A DNA stretch of 9,835 nt, taken from Pseudomonadota bacterium. GTDB lineage: Bacteria > Pseudomonadota > Gammaproteobacteria > Burkholderiales > Burkholderiaceae. The stretch lies in NCBI GenBank assembly GCA_023441105.1, contig JAEZQX010000550.1:1-9835 (forward strand), read 5' to 3'. The translations under genes were made by a program, and so were the position numbers. Each line of letters begins with the position of its first letter. Position 1 is the first letter of the stretch. Positions 1,848 through 9,835 of the stretch are shown here, piece after piece. The notes under the pieces were generated by a model that did not search any database, was not told where the DNA came from, and was given only the letters and a program-made list of their open reading frames with translations.

Positions 1848-1851
<4 letters not shown>
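1045..1851 (-). CDS. otsB: Trehalose-6-phosphate phosphatase-like HAD hydrolase (OtsB family)
   Basis: Predicted to dephosphorylate the sugar phosphate made by the upstream synthase, giving free trehalose in the cytosol. The 268-residue product has the HAD signature LALDFDGTLAP with nucleophile D26 and acid/base D28, SGR at 64-66, GNHGNE at 84-89, a cap-domain FERKSLSLSLHYR with E136 and K138, motif III lysine probably K189, and GDDVTDE at 209-215 for magnesium binding. Length is normal for OtsB. The start is GTG: the bases GTGA (1851-1848) combine this start with the otsA stop, and there is no Shine-Dalgarno sequence, which fits translational coupling. Oddity: where OtsB proteins usually read VxEI(R/K)Px(4-5)KG, this one reads VLNLMAPGLVTKF, so the sugar-contacting cap glutamate appears to be N180 and the glycine after the lysine is phenylalanine. 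A phosphatase for a related sugar phosphate, such as glucosylglycerol phosphate, is the main alternative. Confidence 0.9.
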
Positions 1852-3674
<1,823 letters not shown>

Positions 3675-5130: not shown

Positions 5131-5145
5131 CCGCTCATGAAGCGG
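5131..5145. terminator. Possible small stem-loop at the convergent gdhA / yceH ends
   Basis: CCGCT and AGCGG form a 5 bp stem with a CATGA loop, just after the gdhA stop and covering the last base or two of yceH. Being symmetric it could work on both strands, but there is no T-run on either side, so an intrinsic terminator is not proven. The convergent genes have only 6 nt between their stops, so their transcripts must overlap or terminate inside each other. Confidence 0.25.
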
Positions 5146-6010
5146 TCTCCGGGGCCGGGGCAATCGGGTGCGCCGCAACCACCCGCCAGCCCTGCGGGAA
5201 CCTGACCCAGGCAAGGCATTCCCGCTGCGGCCGCCCCAGCGCGTCGGCGCCGGCCGCCACCACGGTGACCGCGAACTCGCGACCGAAGCTGCGCACCTGG
5301 GCGCCGGCGGGAGCAGGCAGGCGCGCCGACGAGCCATGGAGGGCGCGGGCAGACTGCCAGAGCAGGCCTTCCATGGCCCCCGGATCGCCGGCCGCCCGGG
5401 CAGCGACGTAGTCACCCGCCAGCGCCTCGAGCTCGGCCACCACGTCCGGCAGGTCGACCGGCAGCGGTGCCGGCGCCGAGCCCGCCGGCGCAGCCGCGGC
5501 AGACGCAGCGGCCGGCAGCGGCATGCCGCTGAGGCAGTGCATCCAGCGGTTCTCGCGCGAGCCGGGCTGGCGCGGCAGCTCCTGCACCAGGGCGCCGGCG
5601 GCACGCTGCGCCAGCTCGCCGAGAAAGCCCTCCACAGCCGAAACGTCGGAGAAGCGACACAGGCGCTCGCTGTTGGCTCGCAGCTCGGCGGCGGTCTGCG
5701 GTCCGCGCAGCATGAGCATCGCCAGCAAGGCAACCGATTCGACCGGTACCTGCAGCACCCGCTTCAGGTTCTGCGCGTAGCGCATCACCCGGCCGCCGCT
5801 CGACTCGATCACCAGCGACAGTGCCTGCAGCGACCCGAGCGCGGCGACCACCTCCGCCTCGGCGGCATTCATGACCGGGTTGCGGCTGGTCTTCTGGTTG
5901 CAGCCGGCCACCAGCGCGTTGAGGCTCATCGGATAGGCATCCGGTACGGTGCGCTCTTTCTCGACCAGCACGCCGAGAACCCGGGCTTCGAGGGCGGTCA
6001 GGTCACGCAT
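5135..6010 (-). CDS. yceH: YceH family (UPF0502/DUF480) protein with C-terminal AtzH-like domain
   Basis: YceH proteins have two winged-helix-like domains and no settled biochemical role. Residues 1-163 of this 291-residue product match E. coli YceH closely: LTALEARVLGVLVEKE, YPMSLNALVAGCNQKTSRNPVMN, the LRGPQTAAELR segment near 101-111 and PGSRENRWMHCLSG at 149-162. E. coli YceH then ends in a short coiled coil. Here an Ala/Pro-rich linker (about 167-184) leads instead to roughly 100 residues resembling the AtzH-like/DUF3225 NTF2-fold family: VVAELEALAGDYVAA, LLWQSARALHG, and a terminal AWVRFPQGWRVVAAHPI. The domain match is by recognition of these motifs, so the fusion should be tested by profile search. 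The ATG at 6010 matches the family's N-terminus but has no clear Shine-Dalgarno. It may be coupled to a small ORF that overlaps it by 8 nt. The gene is convergent with gdhA. Confidence 0.9.
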   Translation of the reverse strand: MRDLTALEARVLGVLVEKERTVPDAYPMSLNALVAGCNQKTSRNPVMNAAEAEVVAALGSLQALSLVIESSGGRVMRYAQNLKRVLQVPVESVALLAMLMLRGPQTAAELRANSERLCRFSDVSAVEGFLGELAQRAAGALVQELPRQPGSRENRWMHCLSGMPLPAAASAAAAPAGSAPAPLPVDLPDVVAELEALAGDYVAARAAGDPGAMEGLLWQSARALHGSSARLPAPAGAQVRSFGREFAVTVVAAGADALGRPQRECLAWVRFPQGWRVVAAHPIAPAPETAS

Positions 6011-6232: not shown

Positions 6233-7033
6233 ATGACGACTCGAGATCCCGACGCCTGGTGGAGCGCCATCCGCGGAAGCGGTCCGATCATCGCCACCGC
6301 CATCCATGACGGCACCGGCCTGCGTCCGGAGGTCGCCGCGCTGATGAAGCTGGCCCCGCTCGACCGGCTGCGCGAGGAGGATCCGCACACCGGCGAGATG
6401 ATCGCCGCCGTCCCGTCGCGGGTGATCGTGCACCGTTCCCGCTTCGAAGTGGACCTCAACCGGGCGCGCGAGCAGGCCATCTACCGCACGCCGGAGCAGG
6501 CCTGGGGGCTGGACCTCTGGAAGGAGGCGCCGGATGAGGGATTCGTCGAACGATCACTGGCCTTGCACGACGGCTTCTACCGGATGATGCGCGGCTTGCT
6601 CGACGGCATCGTGGCGCAGCACGGCCGCTTCATCCTGCTCGACGTGCACAGCTACAACCATCGCCGCGACGGCCCCCACCATCCTGCCAGCGACATCGCG
6701 AAAGCGCCCGACATCAACCTCGGCACCTTCTCGATGCCGGCGGGCCGCTGGAACCATGTGATCGACACGCTGGTCGACGGTGTGCGCCGCTACGACTATC
6801 CCGGCCGCCGGTTGTCGGTCGGCATCGACGTCGCCTTCCAGGGCCGCGGCGCCCTCGCCCGCTTCGTGCACGAGACCTATCCCGAGGCCGGCTGCGCCAT
6901 CGCGCTCGAGGTGAAGAAGTTCTTCATGGACGAATGGACCGGGGTACCGCACCGCGACCACATCGCCGCGCTGCAGACGATGTTTGCCGCGCTCCTCCCG
7001 AGCCTGCAGGCCAGCCTCGACGGATCCCGCTGA
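6233..7033 (+). CDS. N-formylglutamate amidohydrolase family protein (FGase-like, M14-type zinc hydrolase fold)
   Basis: Family members hydrolyse N-formylglutamate or related N-acyl/amide bonds with a zinc site. The physiological substrate here is unknown. The 266-residue product shows the family landmarks in order: ATAIHDGTGLRPE (H25, in the place of the canonical PHSG), REEDPHTGEM at 47-56, RSRFEVDLNR (R70, D74, N76, R77), LLDVHSYNHRR (D137, H139, S140) and AIALEVKKFFMDEW (E226). H25, an acidic residue and H139 are plausible zinc ligands, with E226 as a candidate catalytic glutamate; this mapping is by analogy. No histidine-degradation (hut) genes are nearby, so a HutG role is unlikely. Its stop overlaps the next start by one base (TGATG, 7031-7035), placing it in one translational unit with the QEGLA and ATP-grasp genes. 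It may deacylate a substrate or product of that pathway. Confidence 0.87.
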   Translation: MTTRDPDAWWSAIRGSGPIIATAIHDGTGLRPEVAALMKLAPLDRLREEDPHTGEMIAAVPSRVIVHRSRFEVDLNRAREQAIYRTPEQAWGLDLWKEAPDEGFVERSLALHDGFYRMMRGLLDGIVAQHGRFILLDVHSYNHRRDGPHHPASDIAKAPDINLGTFSMPAGRWNHVIDTLVDGVRRYDYPGRRLSVGIDVAFQGRGALARFVHETYPEAGCAIALEVKKFFMDEWTGVPHRDHIAALQTMFAALLPSLQASLDGSR

Positions 7034-8973
7034 TGCCGAGCCCGATCAACGAAGCCGCCACCCCCGACATCGATCCGTCCGAGGTCTACATGCTCGAGCG
7101 GACGGCCATGGCCTTGCCGGGACCGCGGCCGTTCCGGGTCATCTCCGCCGGCGGCAACCGGGTGCACGTCGATCGTGACCTGCCCTTCATGTGCGCCTAC
7201 CAGCGCGGCATCAGCACGCCGCCCAGCCTGGCGCGACGCATCGCCGCCTCGAGCGCCATCCACCTGCTGTGGAGCCGCGTCGAGCCGGGCGACAGCGAGC
7301 CGGAAGCCATCGTCGATGCCATCGCGGGGCGCATGCGCCAGCATTACGAGCGCTTCCTGCTGATCGAGATCAAGGACCTCGAGTCGCAGGCCGGTGCGGA
7401 CCCGGAGTCGCCGCAACTGCCGGAGTTCCGTTTCGACATCGAGGGCGAAGGGCTGGCGCCGGAATCGGACGTGATCGACACGATCCGCAAGGCGCTGACG
7501 CGCAACGAGATCGACTATCGCCATCCCGACGTGCGCATCCTGGCGCCGCACGAAGCCGACGGGCTTCGGGACCTGGGGGCGGTCGGGCCGGAGATCGCCC
7601 GCCTGGCGATCGGCGTGCCGACCATCCATCGTTCGCCGGACGGACAGCGGCAGTATCCGGCGCTGTTCCACCAGATGGAAGCCGCCGTGATCGATGCGGT
7701 GCTGCGCGCGGCGATGACCTTCGCGCGCCATCACCACGTCTTCGGCACGATGCACCATCGCGCGCTCGGCAGGCGCGCCTTCGTGCAGGCGGCGCGGACG
7801 GTGGACCGGCAGATGACGGAGATCTCCGGCTCCTATGATTTCCTGCTCGACCTGACGCCGATCAATTCGGCGCAGGCGCGCGAGGAATTCAGTCGCAGCG
7901 GCTGCGTGGCACCGCCGCGGCTGCGCTACCGGCCGCTGGCGATCGCGCCGGGGGAACTCAAGCGGGCGCTTTATTCGATCAACATCGGCCGCATCGAAGA
8001 CCCCACGCTCGAGGACCTGTTCCGCGAAAAGCAGCTGGAGATGGACCACCAGCTGACCATGCTGCAGTGTCGCAACACGCCGCAGTTCAAGGAGGCCAGC
8101 CGCCTGCTCTACGGCCGCGTCGACGACGGGCTGCTCGCCATCGCGCGCGCGGTGATCGAAGCGGCACAGGCCGCCGACGGCGACCAGGACGGCGATCCGG
8201 TCGCCGAGCCCGAGGACGAGGTGGGCTGCGAGGAGATCCTCGCCGCGGCCAATCGCACCATCGAGTGGTATCGCGCCATTTGCCCCGACTTCAACGCGGT
8301 GGCGCTGCTGCGCGACGACACGCCGCCCGGACTGATGGTCTCCGGCCCGCGCCTGCTGATCTCGCGCCAGACGCGCATGTCGGCGCGGCGGCTGCCGGCG
8401 CTGCTGGAGCACGAGGTGGGCGTGCACCTGCTCACCTATTTCAACGGCAATGCCCAGGGCTTGCGCATCTTCCGCGCCGGCCTCGCCGGCTACGAACGCA
8501 CCCAGGAGGGCCTCGCCGTGTTCGCTGAGTTCGCCACCGGCGGCACCGGCGTGCAGCGGCTGGTGCTGATCGCTGCCCGGGTGCTGGCGGTGCATGCGAT
8601 GCTCGACGATGCCAGCTTCATCGAAACCTTCCGCTTGCTGCGGCGGGAGGCCGGCATGGACGAGACCGCGGCCTTCGGCGTGGCGCTGCGGGTGCACCGT
8701 TCGGGCGGGCTGAGCAAGGATGCCATCTACCTCCAGGGGCTGCAGCAGGTACTGCAACACGTTGCCGGCGGCGGCGAGCTGGAGCCTTTCTGGTACGGCA
8801 AGATCGCGGCGCACCACTTCAATGTGCTGCAGGAACTCAGGGCTCGTGGCATGCTTCGCGAGCCGTGCGCGCGGCCGGCGTTCCTGTCGTCGCCGCGCGG
8901 GCAGGCATTCGTCGAGTCGGCGGTCGCCGGGCTCGGTGTCCGCGACCTCATCCGGGAGCAGCAGCCAGCGTGA
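7033..8973 (+). CDS. DUF1704 / QEGLA-motif putative zinc carboxypeptidase (MATCAP-related)
   Basis: A 646-residue member of the family often labelled 'flavohemoglobin expression-modulating QEGLA motif protein'. The C-terminal half has EHEVGVHLLTYFNGNAQGL with an HExxxH motif (H460, E461, H465) followed by YERTQEGLAVFAEF with E492 in QEGLA. This HExxxH+E arrangement matches the metallopeptidase site of eukaryotic MATCAP, which removes the C-terminal tyrosine of alpha-tubulin and belongs to the same DUF1704 family. All three predicted metal ligands and the catalytic glutamate are intact. The N-terminal part (VHVDRDLPFMCAYQRG near 45-60; IGVPTIHRS near 195) is typical of bacterial members. A variable acidic insert lies near 382-400. 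No signal peptide or membrane segment is visible, so it is probably cytosolic. It overlaps the upstream stop by 1 nt and the downstream GTG start by 4 nt. The bacterial substrate is unknown; peptidase activity is inferred. Confidence 0.9.
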   Translation: MPSPINEAATPDIDPSEVYMLERTAMALPGPRPFRVISAGGNRVHVDRDLPFMCAYQRGISTPPSLARRIAASSAIHLLWSRVEPGDSEPEAIVDAIAGRMRQHYERFLLIEIKDLESQAGADPESPQLPEFRFDIEGEGLAPESDVIDTIRKALTRNEIDYRHPDVRILAPHEADGLRDLGAVGPEIARLAIGVPTIHRSPDGQRQYPALFHQMEAAVIDAVLRAAMTFARHHHVFGTMHHRALGRRAFVQAARTVDRQMTEISGSYDFLLDLTPINSAQAREEFSRSGCVAPPRLRYRPLAIAPGELKRALYSINIGRIEDPTLEDLFREKQLEMDHQLTMLQCRNTPQFKEASRLLYGRVDDGLLAIARAVIEAAQAADGDQDGDPVAEPEDEVGCEEILAAANRTIEWYRAICPDFNAVALLRDDTPPGLMVSGPRLLISRQTRMSARRLPALLEHEVGVHLLTYFNGNAQGLRIFRAGLAGYERTQEGLAVFAEFATGGTGVQRLVLIAARVLAVHAMLDDASFIETFRLLRREAGMDETAAFGVALRVHRSGGLSKDAIYLQGLQQVLQHVAGGGELEPFWYGKIAAHHFNVLQELRARGMLREPCARPAFLSSPRGQAFVESAVAGLGVRDLIREQQPA

Positions 8974-9835
8974 AGATCGGATTCTTTGTCAATGACATGG
9001 CGCGCGAAGAGGAGCACTTCGCCACCACCATCCTCGCCAACGAATGCTCGCGCCGGGGCCATACGGTCTGCTACATCACCCCCTCGGATTTCAGCTTCAT
9101 GCCGGACGACCGGCTGCACCTGAGGGCCCGCTTCGCGCCGCGCAAGAAGTTCCCCAGCTACATGGCCTTCTTCAAGGCGATGCAGGACCGCAAGATCGAG
9201 ACGCGCACCATCGAGGCGGCCGAGCTCGACGTCATCATGCTGCGGAACGACCCGTCGGCCGACGCGGTGGATCGCCCCTGGGCCGAGGGCATCGGCATCC
9301 TGTTCGGGCGGATCGCGGCCGAACAGGGGGTGCTGGTGCTCAACGACCCGGACGGTCTCAGCCTGGCCACCAACAAGCTCTACTTCCAGTCGTTCCCGGA
9401 GGCGTTGCGGGCCCCGACCCTGATCTCCAAGGACGTCGAGGCCATCAAGAAGTTCGCCAACGAGCAGGGCGAGAAGATCGTTCTCAAGCCGCTGCGCGGC
9501 AGCGGCGGCCAGAGCGTGTTCGTGGTCGGCGCGGAGAAGTCCTCCAACCTGAACCAGATGATCGAGGCCATCAGCCGCGACGGCTACGTCATCGCGCAGG
9601 CCTACGTGCCGGCGGCGAAGGACGGCGACATCCGCTTCTTCCTCATCAACGGCGTGCCGCTGATGCACAAGGGAAAGTACGCCGCCTTCCGGCGCACCTC
9701 GGCCTCCGGCGACGTGCGCAGCAACATCCACGCCGGCGGCAGCCCCAGCAAGGCCGAGATCGGCGACATCGAGCTGCAGGTGGCCGAGATGGTCCGGCCG
9801 AAGCTGGTGCGCGACGGGATGTTCCTGGTCGGGCT
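8970..9835 (+). CDS. Glutathione-synthetase-like ATP-grasp ligase, N-terminal 288 residues, cut by window edge
   Basis: ATP-grasp enzymes of this type join a carboxylate to an amine through an acyl phosphate. The frame is open from GTG at 8970 to the right edge. It aligns along its whole visible length with E. coli GshB: MKIGFFVNDM, LDVIMLRNDPSAD (86-98), LVLNDPDGLSLATNK (122-136), IVLKPLRGSGGQSVF (170-184, nucleotide-binding lysine K173 and glycine loop), AQAYVPAAKDGDIRFF (209-224), NIHAGG (252-257) and a final FLVGL. GshB's RKDPPFD, part of its substrate pocket, reads RNDPSAD here, so true glutathione synthesis is doubtful and a paralogue with another substrate is more likely. No gshA is visible. 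The GTG overlaps the preceding stop (GTGA, 8970-8973). A weak GGGAG sits 11 nt upstream, so coupling probably sets expression. The catalytic C-terminal metal-binding residues lie beyond the window. Confidence 0.87.
   Translation, partial: MKIGFFVNDMAREEEHFATTILANECSRRGHTVCYITPSDFSFMPDDRLHLRARFAPRKKFPSYMAFFKAMQDRKIETRTIEAAELDVIMLRNDPSADAVDRPWAEGIGILFGRIAAEQGVLVLNDPDGLSLATNKLYFQSFPEALRAPTLISKDVEAIKKFANEQGEKIVLKPLRGSGGQSVFVVGAEKSSNLNQMIEAISRDGYVIAQAYVPAAKDGDIRFFLINGVPLMHKGKYAAFRRTSASGDVRSNIHAGGSPSKAEIGDIELQVAEMVRPKLVRDGMFLVG

Follow-up and report, generated by a model that had tools for sequence, protein, structure and literature searches.

A cassette of FGase-family hydrolase, MATCAP-type metallopeptidase and GshB-like ligase genes in Pseudomonadota, a candidate make-and-trim system for a peptide-like substrate

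Organization of the cassette

We analysed a stretch of DNA of 9,835 nucleotides from a member of the Burkholderiaceae (assembly GCA_023441105.1, contig JAEZQX010000550.1), called the window below, in which a cassette of three closely packed genes occupies the end of the forward strand. The first gene (6233..7033) encodes an FGase-family (PF05013) amidohydrolase of 266 amino acids (Pfam E-value 1.5e-20), the second (7033..8973) a MATCAP/DUF1704 metallopeptidase of the long form, with 646 amino acids (PF08014, 4.1e-83), and the third (8970..9835) a GshB-like, PRK12458-like ATP-grasp ligase with a GTG start. The FGase and MATCAP genes share one nucleotide at 7033, where the A of the FGase TGA stop opens the MATCAP ATG, and the ligase start at 8970 lies in a four-nucleotide overlap with the MATCAP stop (GTGA, 8970..8973). 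A preliminary description, made from the window's letters, had proposed this trio with its overlaps, and the sequence and the Pfam and NCBIfam matches bear it out. The nearest named homologues are Lautropia entries, with 73%, 66% and 76% identity (P0017, P0020 and P0021), which points to a Lautropia-like burkholderial as the probable source. The cassette probably comprises one enzyme forming amide bonds and two breaking them.

The hydrolase scored 74.8 bits against PF05013, above the gathering score of 28.9, and 25 bits against TIGR02017, the model of the N-formylglutamate deformylase HutG, whose cut-off is 278.75. HutG belongs to the same Pfam family, but because its equivalog model is missed by so much, 'FGase' is used here as a family name only: the earlier assignment holds for the family and not for deformylase identity. 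No histidine-degradation family was found among the seven window proteins scanned. Residues H25, E48, E49, D50, D137 and H139 are conserved at 97% or more among 83 cassette FGases. From its invariance, H25 (codon 6305..6307) is likely a metal ligand; D137-x-H139 (DVH) is encoded at 6641..6649.

The MATCAP protein carries a second, degenerate FGase domain

The second protein scored 279.8 bits against PF08014 (gathering score 27) and 325 bits against the QEGLA model TIGR02421, slightly below the cut-off of 338.65. Its catalytic domain spans residues 271-641 (7843..8955) and contains the HExxxH metal motif HEVGVH (H460-H465; 8410..8427), which aligns with HEIGTH of the human structure 7z5g, and a QEGLA motif (8503..8517), aligned to human EEGLA, in which E492 is the predicted third metal ligand by alignment to MATCAP. 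These are the metal ligands that the preliminary description had pointed out. HExxxH is kept in all 83 cassette MATCAPs and a QEGLA-like motif in 82 of them. In a comparison proposed at the same time, the AlphaFold2 model of the whole protein (mean pLDDT 86, pTM 0.72) showed the fold of human MATCAP.

Ahead of the catalytic domain, residues 39-234 (7147..7734) form a degenerate FGase-fold domain; the histidine of the FGase D-x-H motif is lost in 77 of 83 such N-terminal domains. Its most likely role is to dock the active FGase or to hold the substrate. The domain distinguishes the bacterial protein from eukaryotic MATCAP/TMCP (KIAA0895L, KIAA0895), as does the operon shared with a ligase and an FGase.

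The ligase is close to GshB, yet distinct from it

The ligase, called GshB-like in the preliminary description, does match PF02955 and PF02951 and has PRK12458 (NF009110) as its best NCBIfam model, with the correction that the window holds 288 of about 350 amino acids, the rest lying beyond its end. The truncated protein scored 367.6 bits against NF009110, where the cut-off is 408. Against the GshB model TIGR01380 (cut-off 299.05) it scored 149.8 bits, and none of 13 full-length cassette ligases from 11 genomes reached that cut-off (186-248 bits). The GshB fold extends over the whole chain, and GshB is the closest structural relative by a clear margin, followed by RimK, among the matches listed. 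Positions nearly invariant in canonical GshB are nevertheless occupied by other residues: position 307 is G in 29/29 cassette rows vs T in 22/22 canonical rows, and position 304 is F in 27/29 vs T in 22/22. The residues that are invariant in the C-terminal NVTSPT motif of canonical GshB are not kept in the cassette relatives (the window copy is cut off before this motif). In six of the 11 genomes a gshA-like gene is present and canonical gshB absent, so that the cassette ligase is the only close GshB homologue there.

RimK-type glutamate ligases have accessory protease genes, RimB/RimC; such systems are not known to include a MATCAP. The truncated window ligase differs from that group in scoring 31.1 bits against the RimK equivalog NF007764, whose cut-off is 331. 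The proposed likeness to tubulin tyrosine ligase (TTL) was not borne out by Pfam: no match to the TTL family was found for 21 of 21 ligases (E <= 0.1) nor for the window ligase (E <= 0.001). TTL was not among the 50 structural matches listed, though it may still be a relative. Homologues of the ligase named Deltaproteobacteria and Aminicenantes exist.

The three genes travel together

In order to examine the conservation of the trio, relatives of the long MATCAP protein were collected with one genome per species. At least 526 stretches were found and the best 80 kept, which are close relatives by construction, since only top-ranking stretches were retained. FGase, MATCAP and ligase genes lie within 1 kb on the same strand in all 82 loci formed by these 80 and two plasmid loci; linkage kept in 82/82 close relatives is beyond chance. 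The set includes rhizobia, sphingomonads, Brevundimonas, Lysobacter and Luteimonas.

To lessen the bias towards close relatives, 299 genomes spread across Pseudomonadota were searched with PF08014. Matches occurred in 29 genomes at 35 places, and 33 regions were examined. Nine of them (L145-L153) hold a cassette-type MATCAP, two (L151 and L153) being truncated at contig ends and classed by their scores. The ligase adjoins in eight of the nine, all except L147, and an FGase gene or domain was present within the region in five; in L148 and L152 the FGase lies 1.4 and 2 kb from MATCAP, and in L151 and L153 its presence is hidden by contig edges. Another 23 regions (L123-L144, L155) hold other, mostly short MATCAPs, with two longer mechanical frames of 549 and 702 amino acids, and L154 is a fragment. 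These solo proteins, mostly of about 390-485 amino acids, have the PF08014 catalytic domain in common with the cassette MATCAP; unlike it, they are accompanied by no FGase gene or domain and no cassette ligase in the 23 regions, some of which are short contigs, and one weak GshB-type gene (59 bits) was seen nearby. The suggested tabulation of DUF1704 neighbourhoods revealed, in the Pseudomonadota sampled, a linkage that recurs in distant proteobacteria and goes with a distinct branch of MATCAPs.

The ligase follows the same distribution. Matches to PRK12458 over the NF009110 cut-off were obtained in 8 of the 299 genomes (424-488 bits, the next match having 241 bits). Seven of these eight account for every genome with cassette-type MATCAP, and in the remaining 22 genomes with a MATCAP the cut-off was never exceeded. 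The hypergeometric probability of this overlap is 2e-13 and, if the centre genome is left out, 8e-12, both uncorrected for kinship. Among 289 genomes of Alphaproteobacteria the ligase (E <= 1e-80) occurred in three, including the centre genome G002, the other two ligases falling below the curated cut-off; in all three a MATCAP match lies 42-54 bp ahead of the ligase match. MATCAP itself was present in eight of the 289; of the five without ligase, four have frames of 441-453 amino acids, and in the fifth the gene is spread across two frames.

Several side observations concern these loci. The genome of L147 has a complete cassette elsewhere (L149), and genome G117 holds three ligase-MATCAP copies (L150, L151 and L152). 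In G373 (C39, 82978-83945), a genome without cassette ligase at E <= 1e-80, the MATCAP gene runs over two overlapping frames. MATCAP-protein matches were found in 126 of 72,556 plasmid records, 111 of them covering at least 80% of the query and most on rhizobial plasmids; the full trio was checked on L081, on L082 and on the Sinorhizobium meliloti 1021 plasmid pSymB, where the cassette lies within 6078-9879 of L088. At L083, from a Lysobacter, the solo MATCAP gene adjoins an rsgA GTPase gene, and a clustered gene of 365 amino acids, which we take to be the same rsgA, recurs in six solo regions (L137-L140, L144 and L155).

Natural fusions of FGase and MATCAP

In gammaproteobacteria the FGase and MATCAP occur fused. 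A Vibrio plasmid protein of 663 amino acids combines PF05013 (42-223) with PF08014 (324-644) in one chain. Among the best 120 of 450 relatives of this fusion, 117 have both Pfam domains, and the named ones are mostly Vibrio, Shewanella, Ferrimonas and Colwellia-like. Five motif patterns were scored (three of FGase, HExGxH and QEGLA), and all five are present in 90/120; HExGxH is missing in 1/120 and the strict QEGLA pattern in 13/120. In three of four loci examined the ligase adjoins the fusion, namely two Photobacterium plasmids (L092 and L093, where the frames overlap by mechanical starts) and L146. A gene for a putative LysR-type regulator is found close to the cassette at the two Photobacterium loci and at L145, L148, L149 and L150, and the small gene recurring in L092, L093 and L146 is probably MaoP/DUF413; in the record of L089, maoP is annotated directly upstream of the fusion. 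COG3930 is presumably the MATCAP/QEGLA family. Among the clade-2-specific genes of Vibrio vulnificus, the COG3930 gene VV2_1203 adjoins the glutathione synthetase gene VV2_1204, according to the part of the report available (PMC3091676).

In a tree of 65 MATCAP domains, all 24 cassette proteins cluster together (100/100), and a branch with 100/100 support separates the cassette group and the fusions from 24 of 25 solo proteins. The remaining one, L143 (G271:C1), is a 393-amino-acid MATCAP that lacks an FGase domain and falls with the fusions, on a long branch, possibly after secondary loss of the domain; because of this exception and the long branches the tree is to be read with caution.

A tentative make-and-trim reading

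Our preferred interpretation, held tentatively, is that the cassette makes and trims one peptide-like substrate, a glutathione-like peptide or a short tail. The ATP-grasp ligase would activate a carboxylate with ATP and couple it to an amine in the manner of GshB and RimK. The FGase, of the M14/aspartoacylase-type fold, and the MATCAP peptidase, both putative metal hydrolases, would then shorten that product by removing residues, probably on the C-terminal or gamma-glutamyl side, while the degenerate FGase domain would dock the active FGase or hold the substrate. Most likely the substrate would be a small peptide of the gamma-glutamyl, glutathione-like kind or a short peptide tail, and not a tyrosine of the tubulin type. 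In favour of this reading are the linkage and co-occurrence of the three genes, the natural fusions, the MATCAP fold, the nearness of the ligase to GshB and then RimK, the six genomes in which it is the only close GshB homologue, and the strong rise of a GshB and a QEGLA tag in a Photobacterium at low salt. The preliminary description had seen in the trio a resemblance to a tyrosination/detyrosination module and had mentioned small-peptide metabolism as an alternative; with no TTL match and a ligase nearest to GshB, it is the alternative that we favour.

Several observations weigh against the make-and-trim reading. The literature searched yielded no substrate or activity for any bacterial member, and those MATCAP enzymes that have been characterised have protein tails rather than small peptides as substrates, in the portion of the study available (PMC10499314). 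The eighth ligase genome, G113, showed neither a PF08014 nor a PF05013 match, its ligase lying 48 bp from the contig start. Neither partner gene occurs within some 7 kb of the cassette-type MATCAP of L147 (G097:C24). L150 lacks an FGase over the 2.7 kb that remain before its contig ends, and no cassette ligase is present in the 15 kb that include the fusion on the plasmid of Vibrio sp. HDW18 (L089). The strict D-x-H-S-Y-N pattern is missing in 13/120 fusions, some being near variants and some real losses, so that FGase chemistry may be dispensable. Finally, canonical gshB is also present in the other five of the 11 cassette genomes.

A less probable explanation is a reversible editing cycle on the C-terminal tail of a protein, comparable to the tubulin code, in which the ligase would add tyrosine, glutamate or other residues and MATCAP and the M14-fold FGase would remove them. 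CCP carboxypeptidases are M14 enzymes, and the cassette, with its ATP-grasp, M14-like and MATCAP folds, resembles the eukaryotic set of writers and erasers. As far as the accessible text of PMC10499314 goes, human MATCAP/TMCP are metal carboxypeptidases that remove the C-terminal tyrosine and shorten polyglutamate, acting alongside the CCPs and opposite to TTL/TTLL ligases. RimK, which comes second after GshB in structural similarity to the ligase, attaches glutamates to ribosomal protein S6 (available part of PMC4431377), and rimK was induced 52-fold at low salt in Photobacterium damselae (available part of PMC10308900). The make-and-trim reading nevertheless ranks higher because the ligase is nearest to GshB by a clear margin and lacks a TTL match, and because no conserved fourth gene recurs around 32 loci as a candidate dedicated protein target. 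That the operon is a complete bacterial version of the tubulin-code toolkit, reversibly editing the C-terminus of a bacterial protein with an ATP-grasp writer, M14-fold and MATCAP erasers and a dead eraser domain as substrate reader or regulator, seems to us doubtful; if true, eukaryotic MATCAP would be rooted in such a peptide-editing system.

It is also unlikely that the ligase is a genuine synthase of glutathione or a close analogue, with the two hydrolases recycling glutathione or its conjugates. This would suit the six genomes lacking canonical gshB, but all 13 full-length ligases miss the TIGR01380 cut-off, positions 304 and 307 differ from the canonical residues, and where canonical gshB stands alongside, the ligase cannot simply be equated with glutathione synthase. 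Very improbable, finally, are three independent housekeeping or salvage enzymes sharing an operon for regulation only: all three bear broad family names and two respond to salinity in one species (PMC10308900, available part), but two of the three are found fused, the partners remain the same in gammaproteobacteria although the gene order differs, and co-occurrence is near complete.

In the Photobacterium damselae data (PMC10308900, available part), the tag annotated GshB (RS17020) rose 38.4-fold and the QEGLA tag (RS17025) 27.5-fold at low salt. As the tags are adjacent and Photobacterium loci carry the ligase beside the fusion, we infer that this strongly induced 'GshB' is probably the cassette ligase, and its reading as a housekeeping glutathione synthase may need correcting.

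Most MATCAP homologues of bacteria carry the annotation 'flavohemoglobin expression-modulating QEGLA motif protein'; in the one paper found to contain this phrase it is a table entry. A description of the cassette was not found in searches of open-licence literature, one likely earlier paper falling outside that search. A distinct MATCAP branch that is built on an FGase::MATCAP fusion and accompanied by a peptide ligase and another hydrolase provides a concrete biochemical hypothesis for the family. With three proteins that can be purified, the origin of a eukaryotic enzyme acting on tubulin tails becomes testable.

Neighbouring genes in the window

Upstream of the cassette in the window, the end of a purL-like gene (labelled from its translation) is followed by otsB and otsA on the reverse strand, a glutamate dehydrogenase gene on the forward strand and a gene for a DUF480 protein on the reverse strand. 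The trehalose-phosphate synthase (1848-3674, reverse strand) has an N-terminal extension of about 110 residues ahead of its GT20 domain. The DUF480 (YceH) protein (5135-6010, reverse strand) ends in an AtzH-like segment (PF11533, E 1.7e-11), an unusual-looking fusion.

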